Below are positions 40,101 to 63,913 of a DNA stretch of 64,000 bases, piece by piece. Under the pieces are notes generated by a model. It had not been told where the DNA came from. It did not search any database and was given only the letters and a program-made list of their open reading frames with translations. The stretch comes from Ischnura elegans (taxonomy: Eukaryota > Arthropoda > Insecta > Odonata > Coenagrionidae), in contig NC_060256.1 in NCBI RefSeq assembly GCF_921293095.1, positions 89,373,851 through 89,437,850 of the forward strand, read 5' to 3'. Both the position numbers and the translations under genes were made by a program. Position 1 is the first letter of the stretch. Each line of letters opens with the position of its first letter.

Positions 40101-43100
40101 CTGATGCTACATTTCACCCATTTATTGCCTATTTCAGTTGATATTACCTAATTGCAATTGTTGATTGGCTGTTTGTGTTTGCATGAGGAGCTAGCTTATT
40201 CACTTATCTAGGAATTGCACTGTTCCTTAACTTACCTGACTTATGATAAAGGCTGTATCCCATGTTAAAATTCATGAATATAGTGTTTTCACCTAATTAA
40301 ATTTGACCCACCCACCCGTGGGTCACGCTGCAGCAAATTTATGAGTTTTCTTCATTTTGTAGTTGTTGCCACTCTTCTAAGTGAGAAGTTAGAGTTATTT
40401 TATGGAGGGTACTGTATGAAATGCAACTAAAAGTTTGGTGTGATTCACCCGTGGGTCACACTCTCGCCAGACTGAGTATACCACACACAGTGGACATGAG
40501 GTTAAATTACAGGGTCGTTCCTGGTCAAGGAATTCCGGAATAAGTCTGGGGATTTGATATGATACAGGGAAATCAAGACCATACCATGACATCTCTTGAT
40601 CTCCTGTTCTTGTAACAGACGCATTATTATACCATTTATGGGTTTTGGGAATTACATGTTTTCCAAAGCATTTTGCCAAATGAAGTATCTAAAGTAAACA
40701 TGAATATATTGTATAATTTTTCATATTGTAAACTTAATAAGCTGATTTAATGACTACCAATTAAATGTAGTTTTTGATGCCTTTAATCCTAGAAAGGTAA
40801 AATCATGAAACCAAAGCATTTGTGTGTATTTTAGTTAGGCTTAATATATATCTGTGGAGCAAACATAAAAAGTATTATTTTCTCTTTAATTTATGTGACT
40901 AGGATATTCCTAAAATCCCTATCTGTTTGTATTGATCATTGGTGAAAAGTTGCTTGTCAATATAATCAGGTTCATCAGAATGAAATATTTTAGGCATGTT
41001 TCCTGTTAATGTCTTTCAATGAGACAATTTAAAAAACCCGCTTATTTTTTCCCTTTTAACTCTCACTCACAATTCCGATAATGGAAAACCCCCATCTACT
41101 GCTCTATTTCTATTTTTGTTTAATGTATAGCTTTAATGGCTCCTTATTTACATTAATACTCAATTTTATTTTGGAAAGGACACTTCTTCTGGTGCATATG
41201 GGGAAGACTTAGGCTGTAGGTGAGGGTATAGGTTTTATTTAGCTTTGTCGATCTAATATCATGTTATATCATGCTCCAGATTATATTTTTTTACCAGTCC
41301 TAAAGATTGCCACAATTTTCAAAAAGTGGTGATGGTAGTACTTATTTGGTTTGTGAACGGAAAGGTGTGGCATAATCTCAAGAAAGGGCATGAGGAGATT
41401 CACTCAAGAACATTAGACAGTTGAATTGAAGAAGTTAACAAAGTCATGGAAGATATGTGATAATCAGGTTTTATTTATCTTGCACTAAATTAGCGTTGGG
41501 CCTTATTCAAGGAAATAACTGTAGAGTAGCCAGCGACGTGTTTTCCTCAGTGGAGTACATATTCACATTTGAGGTAGGGACACTATCAAAAGCAATGCAG
41601 AGCTCTTCAAAACAGAGAAGAAAAATTGTAATTCCTGAAAAAAGAAGGTAGAAATAATTTGCTGGCCTCTGTGGCAGCGGGGTTAAGTCCTCACCTGCCG
41701 AACAAGAGGTTGCGGGTTCAAGTCCTGCCTTAGTAGGTTACCCCCATCCTGGGCATGGTTTTTTGTGCTTGTATGATAATTAAATTTGTTGAAATCCAGT
41801 ATGTACTCTTTTCGGTGGTGTGGGAATAAATAAAATAAATTAATAGAAATCCTGGACCATCAGGAGTTCTACATCCACCAGAGTTACGAGCTTAAATGCA
41901 GTAAACTGATTATTGCTGTCCTGTTCATGTCTAATTGCATGTACATATATTGCTGGGCACTAAATCACATTCATGTGTTAAAAATTAAATAGTATGTCGA
42001 TAAAAGAATGAAACAATGGATCCTGATGAATTAGGCCAAAGTTATTTTGCTTGCTGTGGGGGGAAAATGATTTTTCTCTGTGGGATATTTCTCTCTGTCA
42101 GATGTGGAAAATATTACATAAACCTTTTTTCCATAGTTCTTGATTTTTAGTGTAATTTTCAGAAATATTATTTGTTACCAATTTGTTATGGGAGCTCTTT
42201 TCACTACATCTGCGTTAATTATATTGTGAAGAAAATTTATTTGTTTTAGAAATTTTTTTGTTGCAATCAGTGCCTACCAATTAATAATATTGTAGCGGAG
42301 GAATCATCCATGACAACGGGGTTTATTTTTTTTAACGACGGAGATATTAGAGTAAATAGAGGATTGAGGAGATTGTGTTTTGAGAACGAAGTGAGAGTTA
42401 ATGTGTACGACTTCTACTGAAATAAAGGTGTTAAGTGTTCCGGAAATAAGAACAGTTGCTTTTTGTATTGGAACCCTCGCACGTAACAACTGGTGTCAGA
42501 AGGGGACGAAACATAAATTATAGTGTTTGTTATTTTTGTATGAAGCACGACTTATTTTCAATCGAAGTAGGAGCATGGCTTCAAAGGCAGCTAAGTTAAG
42601 TGAGTTGAAAGTGGCGGATTTGAAGCGCGAGTTGGCGGAACGTGACATGGAGACTAGCGGGACGAAAGCAGTCCTTCAGTTGCGACTTCGTGAGGCGCTT
42701 CAGGCCGAAGGCGTGGACCCCGAGGATTTCTCCTTCGAGATAGAAGTCGGCGCGCATGAATTCACGCATTTCCTCACTGTATTTAAAGAAGAGCGTGCCG
42801 AGTATTCCAGAACTTTGAAAGAAATTGCCAGTACTATTCGCTCGATCAAAGACGAACTGCTGGCGAAGATCTCTGAAGTAAAATGTGGGTTGGAAGACGA
42901 CGTCAGAGAATTAAAGGACAAGCTTGAAAATGACGTTAGCGGAGTAAAAGATGAGCTGGAAGCGGATGTCAACGAGATGAAGGAAGAACTGAAATACGTC
43001 ACTTCGGAAGTACAAGGCGTGCAAGAGAGATTAAGGAACGTAAAAGAAGATTTAAAAATGGTAGAAGTCGATGTAGAGAAGCGTATTGAAGATCGTCTGA

Positions 43101-46100
43101 AAACTCTCGCTCAAGAATTGACGCAAACGGGCACTGTTGGAGTATTGTCAGGACTAGCTCCTAGTATCAAGGCCGTGCGTGTAAAACCACCTACATACGA
43201 CGGCAAGATTCCTTGGTCTACTTACTTCAAGCAGTTTGAAGCCGCGGCCAACGCCAACGGGTGGACGAAGGAAGACAGAGCTACGGGCTTGATTGTGGCG
43301 CTGCGAGGAGACGCTTTGAACATTCTTCAAGCGATGCCTGACCATGAACACAGGAACTACGAGTGTCTGGTGGGCCGACTTGAAATGAGGTACGGTGACA
43401 AACACCTTCAACAAGTCTACCACAGCCAATTGCTCACTAGACGTCAAAACCGTGGCGAGACACTGCAGGAATTTGAAGCGGACATCGCGCGACTCGTTTT
43501 CTTGGCTTATCCCTCGGCGCCCAGTGAATTTATTGAGCGATTGTCAGCAGAGTCTTTCGTGGTTGGTGTGGCTGATCCGGAACTGCAGAGAGCTCTACGC
43601 TTAATGCACCCAAAAACTTTGGACGACGCACTAGCCCGAGCCTTGGAATTCCAAGCGGCAACCGAAACTTCAAAAATCCTAACTCATGTCCGAAGCACGA
43701 GCGAAGAAGAATCTCTCGAAGATAGGATCGAAAAGATCGTCTCAAAATTTTTACGGAGGACAGGACAACCCACAAAAAGAGATATACGCTGTTGGGATTG
43801 CGGGGAGCTTGGACATGTCCGTAGTCGCTGCCAAAATAGTACGATGCGGCAGGGACGCTTTCTCGATCGACACCATTGCCAGAGCAGAGCAGATCGACAG
43901 ACTACGCATCTTACTAAAATTTCAAAAATGGGTGACGATATCCGTACTGGGAGCACTCCCCCTAAAACTAAAATTTTCGTGGGCGGTCTCCCTGAAGACG
44001 CCAAGGCACAAGATCTGAGGGCCCTTTTTGAGCGGTATGGAACTGTTACCGAGTGTGACATTTTAAACAGGTATGGCTTTGTGCACATGAAGACTGATGA
44101 GATGGCCGTCCGTGCCATAGAGGCCCTGAACAATGCTGAATTTATGGGTGTCCAGATTAGCGTTGAGCAATCTTCTAGTAAGAAGAGTGGTCGTGGTAGA
44201 GGCTTTGGTCCAATGATGAGAGGTAGAGGAGGACCAATGAGGGGGATGAGAATGGGAAGAGCCCCACCTCCGTACATGATGAGGGACGGTCGTGGGGACT
44301 ATGACAGACGAGGACCAGGAATGGATGGCAGGGGCCCTGGAATGGACAGGATTGGACTGCCACCTCCACCATCAATGAGGAATGGATACTATGACAGTTA
44401 TGACAAAGGCTATGATGGCTACTACACTGCCCGAACCTGAGCGCCGCACATACCCTGACATGCTCCACAAACCCCTAGAGGAAAGGCGAAGGTAGTCCAT
44501 TACAATCGATTGGCACTTTACGAAGGTGGCAATGCAAGAGTTGAGGAGGATCAAGAGGTGAACGCACGTTGGCGGCCGAACAACATGGTCAAGGCGTGGG
44601 TAAGAACTGTTCCGGGACGAAACAGCCTTGAGGAGGGGGCAGTGTAGCGGAGGAATCATCCATGACAACGGGGTTTATTTATTTTAACGACGGAGAGATT
44701 TGAGTAAATAGAGGAGTGAGGAGATTGTGTTTTGAGAACGAAGTGAGAGTTAATGTGTACGACTTCTACTGAAATAAAGGTGTTAAGTGTTCCGGAAATA
44801 AGAACAGTTGCTTTTTGTATTGGAACCCTCGCACGTAACAATATGTATACAATTACCGATTGTTTTCCAGAAAAAGTGAAAAAAGAAACTTAAGGTGGAA
44901 AATTGCCTGTAATTTTTATTTTTTATTAATATGCTGCATATCCACGTGATTAAGCTTGAAGAGGCACTCTCTACTCTGCATGCCTTTGATATGCCATTTA
45001 ATGGCAAAGTGCTTTTGGCGCTGGTTTATTCATTGTGTGTTGGGGTTTCCGACAGGGACAGGGCTGAGCAAGAAAGGGTGAGGAGGCGTGAGGAGAGGCG
45101 TCAGAGGGAAGAGGCGAGATTGAGGGAAAGGGAGTTCCGCAAGGACCCAGCGTGGAAACTGGTCTCTGGGTGGGGAGGGGTGGAGGACGACCTTGCTCTC
45201 CGAGCGTGCACACGGAGGGAAGAAGAGCGCATCCGAAACCAGATCCATTGCCACCAAATGGAGAATATGATGAAGCGAGTTTATCAGATCCCAACTCTGT
45301 TTGAGAGACAGTCTCAGGTATTGTGACTTACGCATTTTCTTAAGCCCCCATTGTTTTTTTTAAACTTCACTATTTTACTAAATAAGGTATGTTTTCGTGG
45401 AGAATTTGAGAATCAGGTCGGCCATCTCCAACCCCATCTTGGAATTCCCTCTTCAATTTACAATAAGGCCCAATCCCTTTTATTCTGTCTATTAATCCTA
45501 TTGATCTCTTCCTCCCCCTCCTCCATCTATCAAGTATTCTTCCCATCTCCCCAATACTATTTCCCACCAGTTCCTGTTAGTCCTAATGATAACTTTATTT
45601 GGCTAAGTAACTAGCTGTTGACTCTGTGTGACTGCTTAAGTGCTGGTCATTATGTGAGGGAAACTGGCTTTGTAACTGAAGGCTCTGTTGAGCAGTGGCG
45701 TAGCGAGGGGGGGTTTTGGGGGATAAAACCCCCCAAAACCCCCCAAATAAAACCCCCCAAAACCTCAGAGAAATTTTTGAGTTTAATCCATTTTAATGAC
45801 ATTGGATCAGTATTACTTATAGAATAGTGTTATGATCAATTAAATATCCCTCAGAAAGCCGTAAAACTCGCCATTTTGAGCCATTAATCTTAAAATTTTC
45901 TGGAGGAGGGCCCCCACAACTCCTGCTTACCCTGGTGGGTATGCAATACCCTGCACCCCAAAGTATTAGTTGCGCCTAAAACTCCCCTAGCCTTAATTCT
46001 TGGCTGCACCCCTGCTGTTGAGAGACAATTCTATAGAATTGGGGAAGAGAAGTCACTGCATATTGGTATGATATCTTAGGCATCAACTTTGAGCTTGAAT

Positions 46101-54179: not shown

Positions 54180-55945
54180 TTATTTCATAATTTATTAATT
54201 AACGGGCTGAAGCCCAATTACGAAGCTTAAAATTCTTTATAAAATGCTATAAGATTTCACAACAATGACAATAGTATACATATTAAAAAGGTAATTAAGT
54301 ATTAAGTAAGCATCTTATCTGGTAATCCTTTCAGGTACCTCATTACAGAAGGTAAGGAATCAAAAAATAGGTCCACTTTGAGACATAAATTGCCGTCACG
54401 CATTATTTGCTGCAATGGGGAAAAATGGGTATAGTTGCGTGAGTGATGGCTATTGTCAAAAAGGTTGTCACCTCTAGTGGAATAAGAAGGAACTTTCAAG
54501 AATATTTCTCTTAGTAGGACAGGGGAATCAACGAGGTTATTTAATAGCTTATACAAGAAAATAATATTAGAGCACTGTCTCCGCTTAAACATGGAAGGAA
54601 GATTAAATAGAGGCAAGATAGCAGAATAGCTATAGTCCTTATCAAATAGTCTTAACTTTATCGAAACCATACGAACAAACTTCCTTTGGATAGACTCAAT
54701 AGTATTAATGTGAGATACATAGTAAGGAGACCATACCACAGAACAGTAATCACAGTTAGATCTAACTAAAGATGTGTAAAGCACTTTATAAATTTCAATA
54801 CTATGTATTAAAGTTTTTTCCAAATCTTGAAATAAGGCCAAGAGCTCTAAACAATTTTGCCTGTATATAATTGAGATGTTGTGTAAAGTTGAGCTTGAAA
54901 TCAAATATAACTCCTAAGTCTTTTACATGGGATAGTTGTGGCAGAGTAATTCCATTTAATTTGTATTGAAATTGTAATGGCTTTTTTTTCCTATGGAAGG
55001 AGATAGTATTGCACTTTTTAATGTTCAAATCCAGGTAGTTAATTTTACACCATTTTTCAAGCCTTTGTAGGCTGTTTTGTAAAGAAACAAAGTCTATTTC
55101 AGAAAATATGGTTTGGAAAATCTTTAGGTCATCTGCATAAAGTAGAAAAGAAACTGGGTCAAGAACATCTTTGATATCATTTATAAACACATTGAAAAGC
55201 ATCGGACCCAAATGAGAGCCTTGAGGAACTCCAGAGGTAGGATAAAAAATTCTTGATTTTGAGGAGTTAATATTAACCACAAGTGATCTATTAGATAAAT
55301 AGCTTTCGAGCCAGGTATTTAGTGTGCCTGTAAAGCCAAGTGACTTTAATTTCACAAGGAGAACTTCATGATTGACTGAGTCAAATGCTTTCGAGAAATC
55401 AGTATAGATGACATCTGTTTGAGTACCATTTTCCATAGCTTTCAATAAATGGTTTTGAAAAGTTAGAAGATTAGTCAAAGTAGAGCGACCTTTAATGAAA
55501 CCATGTTGCTCTGGAATGATAATGCTGTTAATAGTAGAACTAAGTTTATCTACAACCAGTGATTCAAAAACTTTCGCTAATACTGATAGTTTGGCAATAG
55601 GGCGATAATTAGAAATAACATTTCTTTTACCCTCTTTATGCACAGGTATTATGTAAGTTGACTTTAGGGAGTCTGGGAAGATGCCACTACTGAGGGATTT
55701 GTTTAAAAGTATGAATAGTGGATACAATAATGGGGATTGACACATCTTCAAAAATAGGGGAGGAAGCTCATCAGGTCCAGATCCTTTGTTTAGATCAAGA
55801 TTACCAAGTTTATGTTCAATTTCATTAACTGAAATCATGAACGAAGCTATAGTAAAAGAAGAATGTAATGAGTAGTCTGGAATAGGAGCATTATCATGTT
55901 TTCTATACACAGATGAAAAATATTTAGCAAATAAATTGTCTATCC
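54180..55945 (-). mobile_element. non-LTR retrotransposon (jockey/CR1-like), 5'-truncated
   Basis: The minus-strand reverse transcriptase reading from about 55945 to 54302 has the motifs in order: a FAKYFSSV leader, SNYRPIAKLSVLAKVFE, TDFSKAFDSVNHEVLL, SGVPQGSHLGPMLF and the catalytic YADD. Then comes the LEKWCKINYLDLNIKK thumb-type region and a C-terminal segment with SNCDYCSVVWSP. A frameshift near 54800-54830 breaks it into two frames. Endonuclease and ORF1 are absent. The 3' end near 54180 has GGGCTTCAGCCC before an A/T-rich tail. Inactive. It ends just upstream of the acceptor of the exon at 55985. Confidence 0.88.
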
Positions 55946-62066: not shown

Positions 62067-63913
62067 ACATGCCCCACTGGAAGGCCTCTCTTTGTCTGAC
62101 ATCTCCATCCTTTCCCCCCCAAACCCATGTACTCCACATTTTTACATTTTGCCAAAAGTACATAAACCCAACCACCCTGGCCATCCTATTGTCTCATCTT
62201 GCAACTCACCCACGGAAAGAATATCTGCATTCATTGACTATTACCTCCAACCACTAGTTTTGTCTCTACCATCCCATATCAAAGATACCTATAACTTCCT
62301 TGACCGTCTCCAATCCACTCCAATTCCTCCTGACACCCAAATTGCCATGGCCACCATAGATGTCACTTCTCTCTACACATCCACTCCTCATTCTGAAGGT
62401 CTTTCCTCCCTCCGCCACTTCCTTTCCCAACGCCCAGCTCCTCATACCCCTAGCACTGACTTCCTCTTAGGCCTAGCTAATATCGTCCTAACGCACAATT
62501 CGTTCTCATTTAATAATAAGCATTATTTACAAATCAAAGGTTGCTCAATGGGTAGTAGATTCAGTCCCTCCTATGCAAACCTCTACCTAGGCCACTTTGA
62601 ACAAATTTTCCTTTCCCAACATCCATTGAAACCCCTCCTTTGGCTTAGATTTATTGATGACATATTCCTCCTATGGCCACATGGTAATGATTCCCTCAAC
62701 AATTTTATTGCTACTCTCAATTCCTCATCCTCTCTTTCCTTCACCTCAACCATTTCTAATTCCCAGATTACCTTCCTTGATGTTAATATCTATCTTCTCA
62801 ATAACAAATTACTCACCTCTGTCCATGTAAAACCCACGATTAAGCAGCAGTACCTTCATTTTAGCAGTTGTCATCCTTCCCACACTAAACGCTCCCTTCC
62901 CTATTCCCTTTCCATTCGAGGCCACCGTATTTGTAATAATCCTGATGCCCTGAATAATTTTCTTCACAACCTTCACCGCTCCCTCCTCCAGAGAGGCTAC
63001 CCAGAGTCCCTCCTGTATAAAAAAATTCTCAAACAAAGATGCCCCCCAGAACCATGCAATAGAAACAAACCACGTGACCTTTCCCTCTGCACCACTTACT
63101 TTCCTGGAATACAATCCCTGCAATCTATCCTCAAAGACCTCTTCCCTATTCTAAAAAATAATAAGTTGACAGCCAATCTTTTTGCCAAACCCCCTACTGT
63201 CACATTCAGACGGCCTGCAAACCTTTCAAATTTATTCCGCTCAACGAACCCCTTACATAAGCCACCCACTACTCCCAATAGTACACCTTCGCCCTGCGGT
63301 CGTCCTAGATGCAAGACCTGCCCAATTTTTACCCCTCCTTCTATCCCTAGTCATCTCGTCTCCTGTCCACCACCACCCCCTGCGGCCTCTTGTACTTCCA
63401 AGAATGTAGTTTACCTCATTCAATGCCAACACTGTCCCTCCTTTTATATAGGCAAATCCTCAACCCCCCTTAACCTAAGAATCAATAACCACGGGGCATC
63501 ATGCACTTCCTCTGACTTTGCGTCCTTCCCGGTGGCGAAACATGCGGGCACTCATCAGTGTCAATTCAATGATTGTTATAATGTATCAGTTTTAGCCTCC
63601 CTTCCCCCCACAGACCACCCACTCCGACTTAATTCCATTGAATTAATATGTACATATGGCTATTCAAAGCATTTCTTCCTCCCGGCTTAAATATCAACGG
63701 ATAATCCCTTAATTGCCTCAGCACACTATTTTCCCCCCTCTTTGGACCCTACCCCCCCCTATTTCCCCTTCCTTCAGCTATCCTTTACCTACAGTCTCCT
63801 ACCTAACTCTGAGGAAGGTGGTAATACGCCACCAAAAATTCAGTACTTACTGTGAGTGTTTTTTATCTTTTTTTAGTGTGTTCTGTGATTCTGCCCAACC
63901 TAGGTTTTTTTAC
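62067..63913 (+). mobile_element. Penelope-like retroelement (RT plus GIY-YIG), 5'-truncated
   Basis: It is flanked by the 13-bp direct repeat ACTATTTAAAAAA (62054-62066 and 63914-63926). An uninterrupted frame runs from the element's 5' edge to the stop at 63690 (532 residues from 62092). It has HFYILPKVHKP, IDVTSLYTSTP, GCSMGSRFSPSYANLYL and the catalytic FIDDIFLLW. A Cys-rich linker (CGRPRCKTC) and a GIY-YIG nuclease follow (NVVYLIQCQHCPSFYIGKSS). The N-terminal RT part is missing. It ends with a hammerhead-like motif at 63809-63845. The open frame and clear target duplication suggest a young copy. It is in the intron of the minus-strand protease homologue, antisense to it. Confidence 0.92.
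63809..63845 (+). ncRNA. hammerhead-ribozyme-like motif in Penelope-like element tail
   Basis: CTGAGGA, one A, a GGTGG/CCACC stem, AAAA in place of GAAA, then GTA. It lies about 120 bp after the RT-endonuclease stop codon, where Penelope-like elements carry hammerheads. The G-to-A change in the GAAA box would be expected to impair cleavage. Confidence 0.55.

Follow-up and report, generated by a model that had tools for sequence, protein, structure and literature searches.

How a retrotransposon came to carry a single open frame that begins as Gag and ends as an RNA-binding protein is the question raised by a locus of the damselfly Ischnura elegans. The locus lies in a window of 64,000 nucleotides (contig NC_060256.1, positions 89,373,851 to 89,437,850; positions below are those of the window) whose guanine plus cytosine content is 37.8%, with 38.0-38.9% given for the I. 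elegans chromosomes in an excerpt of PMC9975421. The frame is enclosed in a compact long terminal repeat (LTR) element of 2,550 bp (42291-44840), and joins gag to a protein with an RNA recognition motif (RRM). Very probably, a Ty3/gypsy-type element took up the spliced mRNA of a host lark-like gene by template switching and was moved in trans.

Structure of the element

An initial annotation of this DNA had described one uninterrupted frame from Gag to RRM, and such a frame is present at 42575-44440, encoding 621 residues without a break. The LTRs, primer site, purine tract and 4-bp target duplication named in the same annotation were likewise found. Paired LTRs with TG...CA ends, the target duplication, the primer-site-like motif and the purine tract are together those of an LTR retrotransposon, and the two LTRs, 198 bp each and both running from TGTAGC to GTAACA, differ at 4 of 198 positions. 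We take the primer-site-like TGGTGTCAGAAG to be the complement of the 3' end of tRNA-Leu. The element and its gag part are laid out as follows.

42287-42290 (no strand): left target-site duplication ATAT; low complexity, weak on its own
42291-42488 (+): 5' LTR, TGTAGC...GTAACA; 198 bp, 4 mismatches against the 3' LTR
42491-42502 (+): primer-binding-site-like TGGTGTCAGAAG; read from the sequence
42575-44440 (+): Gag-RRM fusion frame, intact, 621 residues; open reading frame (ORF) and translation
42575-43831 (+): gag part with SAP (42596-42700), coiled-coil-like stretch, capsid region and CCHC knuckle (43790-43831); Pfam and alignment with 12 gag relatives
44630-44639 (+): polypurine tract GAGGAGGGGG; 3 nt short of the 3' LTR
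44643-44840 (+): 3' LTR; paired with the 5' LTR
44841-44844 (no strand): right target-site duplication ATAT; sequence read

LTR divergence is K = 0.0205, which would correspond roughly to 1.0 to 3.7 million years at one generation per year and at substitution rates of 1e-8 to 2.8e-9 per site and generation. When the element was compared with the window by BLASTN, the matches were the element itself and its own LTRs and nothing further.

Gag makes up residues 1-419 of the fusion, and the features claimed for it fared unevenly. The SAP domain was confirmed at residues 8-42 (Pfam, E 1.5e-9). The zinc knuckle at residues 405-420 scored 14.5 bits, short of the Pfam cut-off of 20.8, but its C406, C409, H414 and C419 are invariant in 13 of 13 aligned rows (the window and 12 gag relatives), and the evidence for the coiled coil consists of weak coil-type Pfam matches. 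Retrotrans_gag was absent among the best 25 of the 32 Pfam rows of the window, and the capsid region is called from the alignment with the relatives, where it contains residues invariant throughout the 13 rows; among the relatives themselves Retrotrans_gag scored 24.2 bits in P0017 (cut-off 24.1) and 21.9 bits, under it, in P0002.

The gag relatives among those listed show 34-52% identity at no more than 72% query coverage, and many are from the beetle Aromia moschata, in which aspartic protease and integrase domains come after the same gag. Relatives that carry Asp protease and Integrase_p58_C are presumably Ty3/gypsy elements, and the damselfly element, in which the reverse transcriptase is missing, would be of Ty3/gypsy type by the relatedness of its gag and integrase tail. 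Past the integrase tail, the A. moschata gag-pol protein P0017 has weak matches to a macro-domain (E 0.0024) and a CCCH zinc-finger (E 0.0016), both under the Pfam cut-offs, which are possibly additional captures.

The donor gene and what was taken from it

Residues 452-621 of the fusion match a single-RRM family called lark-like or RBM4-like in insects, with RRM_1 at residues 467-528 (Pfam, E 6.7e-15). The nearest solved structures by sequence are the RRMs of RBM4B, RBM30 and RBM14, which are also the top three by fold; the predicted RRM core (residues 21-80 of 170) has block means of 91-95 in the predicted local distance difference test (pLDDT), and the Gly/Arg-rich tail has no confident predicted fold. 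Two I. elegans proteins, P0123 and P0122, stand far ahead of all other matches. P0123, a lark-like isoform X2 of 274 residues, is 96% identical to the captured protein, and its gene fits a place on I. elegans chromosome 11 (103.41 Mb; excerpt of PMC9975421). Judged by protein comparison, the host single-RRM lark-like gene represented by P0123 is the donor. The captured part and what follows it are given below.

43832-43927 (+): linker with the 5' capture junction, a gag/pol remnant or host 5' untranslated region (UTR); CpG observed/expected ratio (o/e) and comparison with P0122
43928-44432 (+): captured lark-like coding sequence, host codons 1-169 (to the first base of codon 169), RRM at 43973-44158; protein comparison, Pfam and fold
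44432-44433 (+): internal deletion junction, 44 nt of host sequence gone, the frameshift making TGA 44438-44440; against parent P0123
44433-44466 (+): host sequence out of frame (EPERRTYPDML); right edge approximate
44467-44647 (+): integrase C-terminal tail (QTPRGKAKVVHYNRL...EEGAV stop); matched by eye to P0017 IQKLPRGKPRVVHFNRL, start approximate

The captured protein had been described as complete, with a start and a stop of its own, and part of this description stands. The RRM is whole and Met 43928 corresponds to the start codon of P0123. The end is another matter: P0123 extends 105 residues beyond ...GYYTAR, where the window drops 44 nt covering GPPPPPPILGTRDR and two bases (a length estimated from the protein). 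Past this deletion the frame shifts into the TGA at 44438-44440, out-of-frame host sequence continues to about 44466, and the final 80 host codons are missing. Measured against P0123, then, the RRM is whole, the captured gene is incomplete and its stop is newly made. The RRM part differs from the parent by six substitutions, and one further residue was created by the frameshift.

Pol is indeed reduced to an integrase tail, as had been proposed. The tail runs from about 44467 to a stop at 44645-44647, and its identification comes from visual comparison with P0017 rather than from a profile; the tail of gag, the protease, reverse transcriptase, RNase H and most of the integrase are missing from the element.

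Absence of the RRM from related gags

An RRM that was a regular part of related gags, which the initial annotation had set against its own proposal of capture, was looked for among the 21 gag relatives having a CCHC of the searched spacing. In 18 of the 21, gag closes with a short tail ending in EN and at most two further residues. The remaining three (P0076, P0086 and P0089) extend otherwise, P0086 and P0089 towards protease, and none of the 21 runs into an RRM. In the precomputed Pfam lists, a SAP or retrotransposon gag domain did not occur with an RRM in one list among the best 120 of the 173 fusion matches, nor in any of the 93 matches to residues 395-621. Since the RRM is absent downstream of all 21 relative gags, it is not ancestral to gag; no point in favour of an ancestral RRM was found, and we reject it as having next to no chance of being correct.

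Probable origin through RNA

The boundaries of homology in relatives of the donor bear on how the segment was acquired. In the ORF fragments P0139, P0140 and P0142, homology starts just before KTKIFVG and stops just after ISVE, and in P0156-P0158 it starts at QSTGKK and stops at SRDR. These limits are read as probable exon edges. The window is uninterrupted across the positions of KTKIFVG and QSTGKK. The captured piece runs on without a break at the apparent intron sites of relatives and would therefore have come through RNA, a conclusion to which this evidence points indirectly. With P0123 as donor and no RRM in the 21 gags, this continuity upholds the earlier proposal that a host RRM gene was captured in place of pol.

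Base composition was also compared along the element. CpG o/e is 1.18 in gag, 1.39 in the linker (43841-43927), 1.43 in the LTR and 0.50 in the captured RRM part. The contrast fits a gene-body origin of the captured part and leaves the source of the linker undecided. For the 44-nt loss, alternative splicing was considered besides a jump of the reverse transcriptase, and the right edge of the deletion lies near the exon boundary suggested by P0156-P0158 (end ...SRDR).

A possible second derived copy in the genome

P0122, an I. elegans lark-like protein of 198 residues, shows 99% identity, and its gene fits a place on chromosome 12 (94.74 Mb; excerpt of PMC9975421). Its annotated start is the in-frame Met equivalent to window position 43844, within the linker, and its annotation contains no gag. 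From 43844 onward, 26 of 28 linker residues are common to the window and P0122. Both have G20, S83, S84, R108 and the shortened end ...TART, all absent from the parent P0123; V61 and K160 are found in the window alone when it is compared with the parent and P0122. The common leader, derived residues and shortened end therefore point to a single derived copy as the source of both the window segment and P0122, rather than to separate descent from the host gene. The captured segment would accordingly be present at least twice in I. elegans, unless P0122 and the window are alleles of one locus.

Proposed mechanism and alternative explanations

The events would have begun with the chance packaging of a spliced mRNA of the single-RRM lark-like gene beside the genomic RNA of the element. 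During minus-strand synthesis, the reverse transcriptase would have left the integrase tail for the mRNA, entering it at about codon 194, and a second switch would have brought it back onto gag RNA immediately 3' of the CCHC knuckle. Host sequence would thereby have replaced the gag tail, protease, reverse transcriptase, RNase H and most of the integrase. The product would be a non-autonomous element with Gag in frame with a C-terminally truncated RRM protein, and this chimaera would have inserted as one unit, using enzymes that a pol-bearing relative provided in trans. Because protease, reverse transcriptase and nearly all of the integrase are gone, the element would depend on the enzymes of a relative. 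We infer the template switching, the mobilisation in trans and the translation of the fusion, and the element's own Gag could be made as Gag-RRM.

Several points weigh against capture by template switching in a Ty3/gypsy-type element. The target duplication is just 4 bp long in AT-rich DNA and is weak when taken alone, the copy has no reverse transcriptase whose placement could underpin Ty3/gypsy membership, and the intron positions are those of relatives rather than of the donor gene itself. In addition, P0122 may represent an ordinary processed retrocopy that lacks gag, or it and the window may be alleles.

The alternative that survives best is a two-step variant, which we regard as unlikely though it merits consideration. 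A processed lark-like retrocopy with a 5'UTR leader and the 44-nt deletion, equated with P0122, would have formed first and been taken later into the LTR element as transcript or as DNA. It would agree with the annotation of P0122, which starts only at the ATG equivalent to 43844 and is without gag, and with the deletion, leader and derived residues common to P0122 and the window. It requires an additional step, however, and the linker is element-like in its CpG (o/e 1.39, compared with 0.50 for the RRM part), although 5'UTRs may be CpG-rich too.

Capture by template switching can also be extended by function, in that Gag-RRM would have been selected and the RRM on the particle protein would pick RNA cargo. 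We consider this addition improbable. The 621-codon frame is intact despite 2.0% LTR divergence, for which a rough neutral model gives a chance of about 4% under an assumed 1 indel per 8 substitutions and of 42% when nonsense changes only are counted, and the RRM core is predicted to be well folded (pLDDT 91-95). On the other hand, four of the six RRM-part substitutions relative to the parent hit conserved positions: of 19 relatives, 17 have R or K at position 20, and 18 in each case have T at 83, G at 84 and R at 160. Positions 61 and 108 are variable among relatives. The four changes look like relaxed constraint. Moreover, P0122 is annotated without gag and a recent copy of an active master would have an intact frame anyway. 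The role in packaging or in host ribonucleoprotein function that had been suggested for the RRM was not supported.

A bolder form would have Gag-RRM particles select cellular mRNAs via the lark-like RRM, with lark-like mRNAs entering LTR elements repeatedly through an association of their products or transcripts with Gag (compare P0246 below); we give this very little credence. An assembly chimaera is most implausible and was rejected, since the LTR-to-LTR structure with its target duplication brackets the segment and P0122, a protein from a separate contig, agrees with the window in 26 of 28 linker residues and in the shortened end of the derived segment.

Comparison with known systems

In acute transforming retroviruses, Gag-onc fusions replace pol and are mobilised in trans. 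The damselfly element similarly has an in-frame Gag-host frame with pol lost; it differs in its cargo, an RNA-binding protein, in its insect genome and in that this copy shows no env.

LTR-mediated retroposition in metazoans, credited to Tan and coworkers in an excerpt of the review PMC5408686, joins spliced host mRNA to LTR-element sequence by template switching and integrates the product with LTRs. The present element carries sense-strand host sequence within an LTR element in the same way (its splicing being judged from the relatives' introns) and shares the joining of spliced mRNA to LTR sequence, but here the host frame is in frame with gag, the cis signals are kept and there is a second protein with the derived segment. 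According to excerpts of PMC13317346 and PMC7264820, Bs1 of maize is likewise an LTR element with transduced host segments in a hybrid frame. Bs1 has three donors in those excerpts, whereas the damselfly element has one, at 96% protein identity, and is of Ty3/gypsy type in an insect. Bdelloid rotifer LTR elements, as presented in part of PMC5408684, have an extra ORF3 downstream of pol, while the damselfly segment comes from the host, stands in place of pol and is joined to gag; for the bdelloid DEDDy-like ORFs, the authors favour in that part exchange between elements over host capture.

In open-licence PMC literature, at the level of titles and abstract openings, no LTR element whose Gag bears an RRM and no comparable gene capture was recognised, and a search on odonate gypsy elements found no paper. 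A comparison of the fusion with viral contigs gave 15 stretches that matched a pattern and no relatives. Host-gene transduction by LTR elements is already known in plants and animals, and the lark-like RRM cargo is new.

Other RRM proteins and neighbouring frames

Two other proteins combine an RRM with transposon sequence, both without gag. P0246 (366 residues, on a 12.7-kb contig) has a lark-like RRM and Gly/Pro-rich tail joined to DUF5641 (E 9.2e-25), which we take to be a domain of BEL/Pao integrase ends. It may reflect a separate capture, from the same host gene family, by an element of another LTR superfamily, or else a gene-model fusion. P0162 has an RRM and an RVT_2 stub under the cut-off.

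Within the window, a tRNA-like box A/box B at 41670-41760, directly upstream of the element, is by eye a probable short interspersed nuclear element. A reverse transcriptase frame on the minus strand at 54801-55910 (RVT_1, E 3.6e-35) is probably, by eye, of long interspersed nuclear element type. At 62092-63690, a frame of 532 residues has RVT_1 (E 3.4e-7) followed by GIY-YIG (E 6.2e-4, under the cut-off), an order that is presumably the layout of a Penelope-like element. A sequence search of the PDB with the neighbouring exon-like frame 45054-45323 gave no matches.

Implications

The reference gene model "RNA-binding protein lark-like" (P0122) may be a mobile-element product and not an ordinary host gene. 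The element itself provides a clean animal case of host-gene transduction, of Ty3/gypsy type, with the host frame in frame with Gag as in the Gag-onc retroviruses. Its donor gene can be named, as can the cis signals it has kept and a second protein that has the derived segment. If the element proves to be multicopy, the capture and amplification could be dated and selection on a Gag-borne RRM would become testable.

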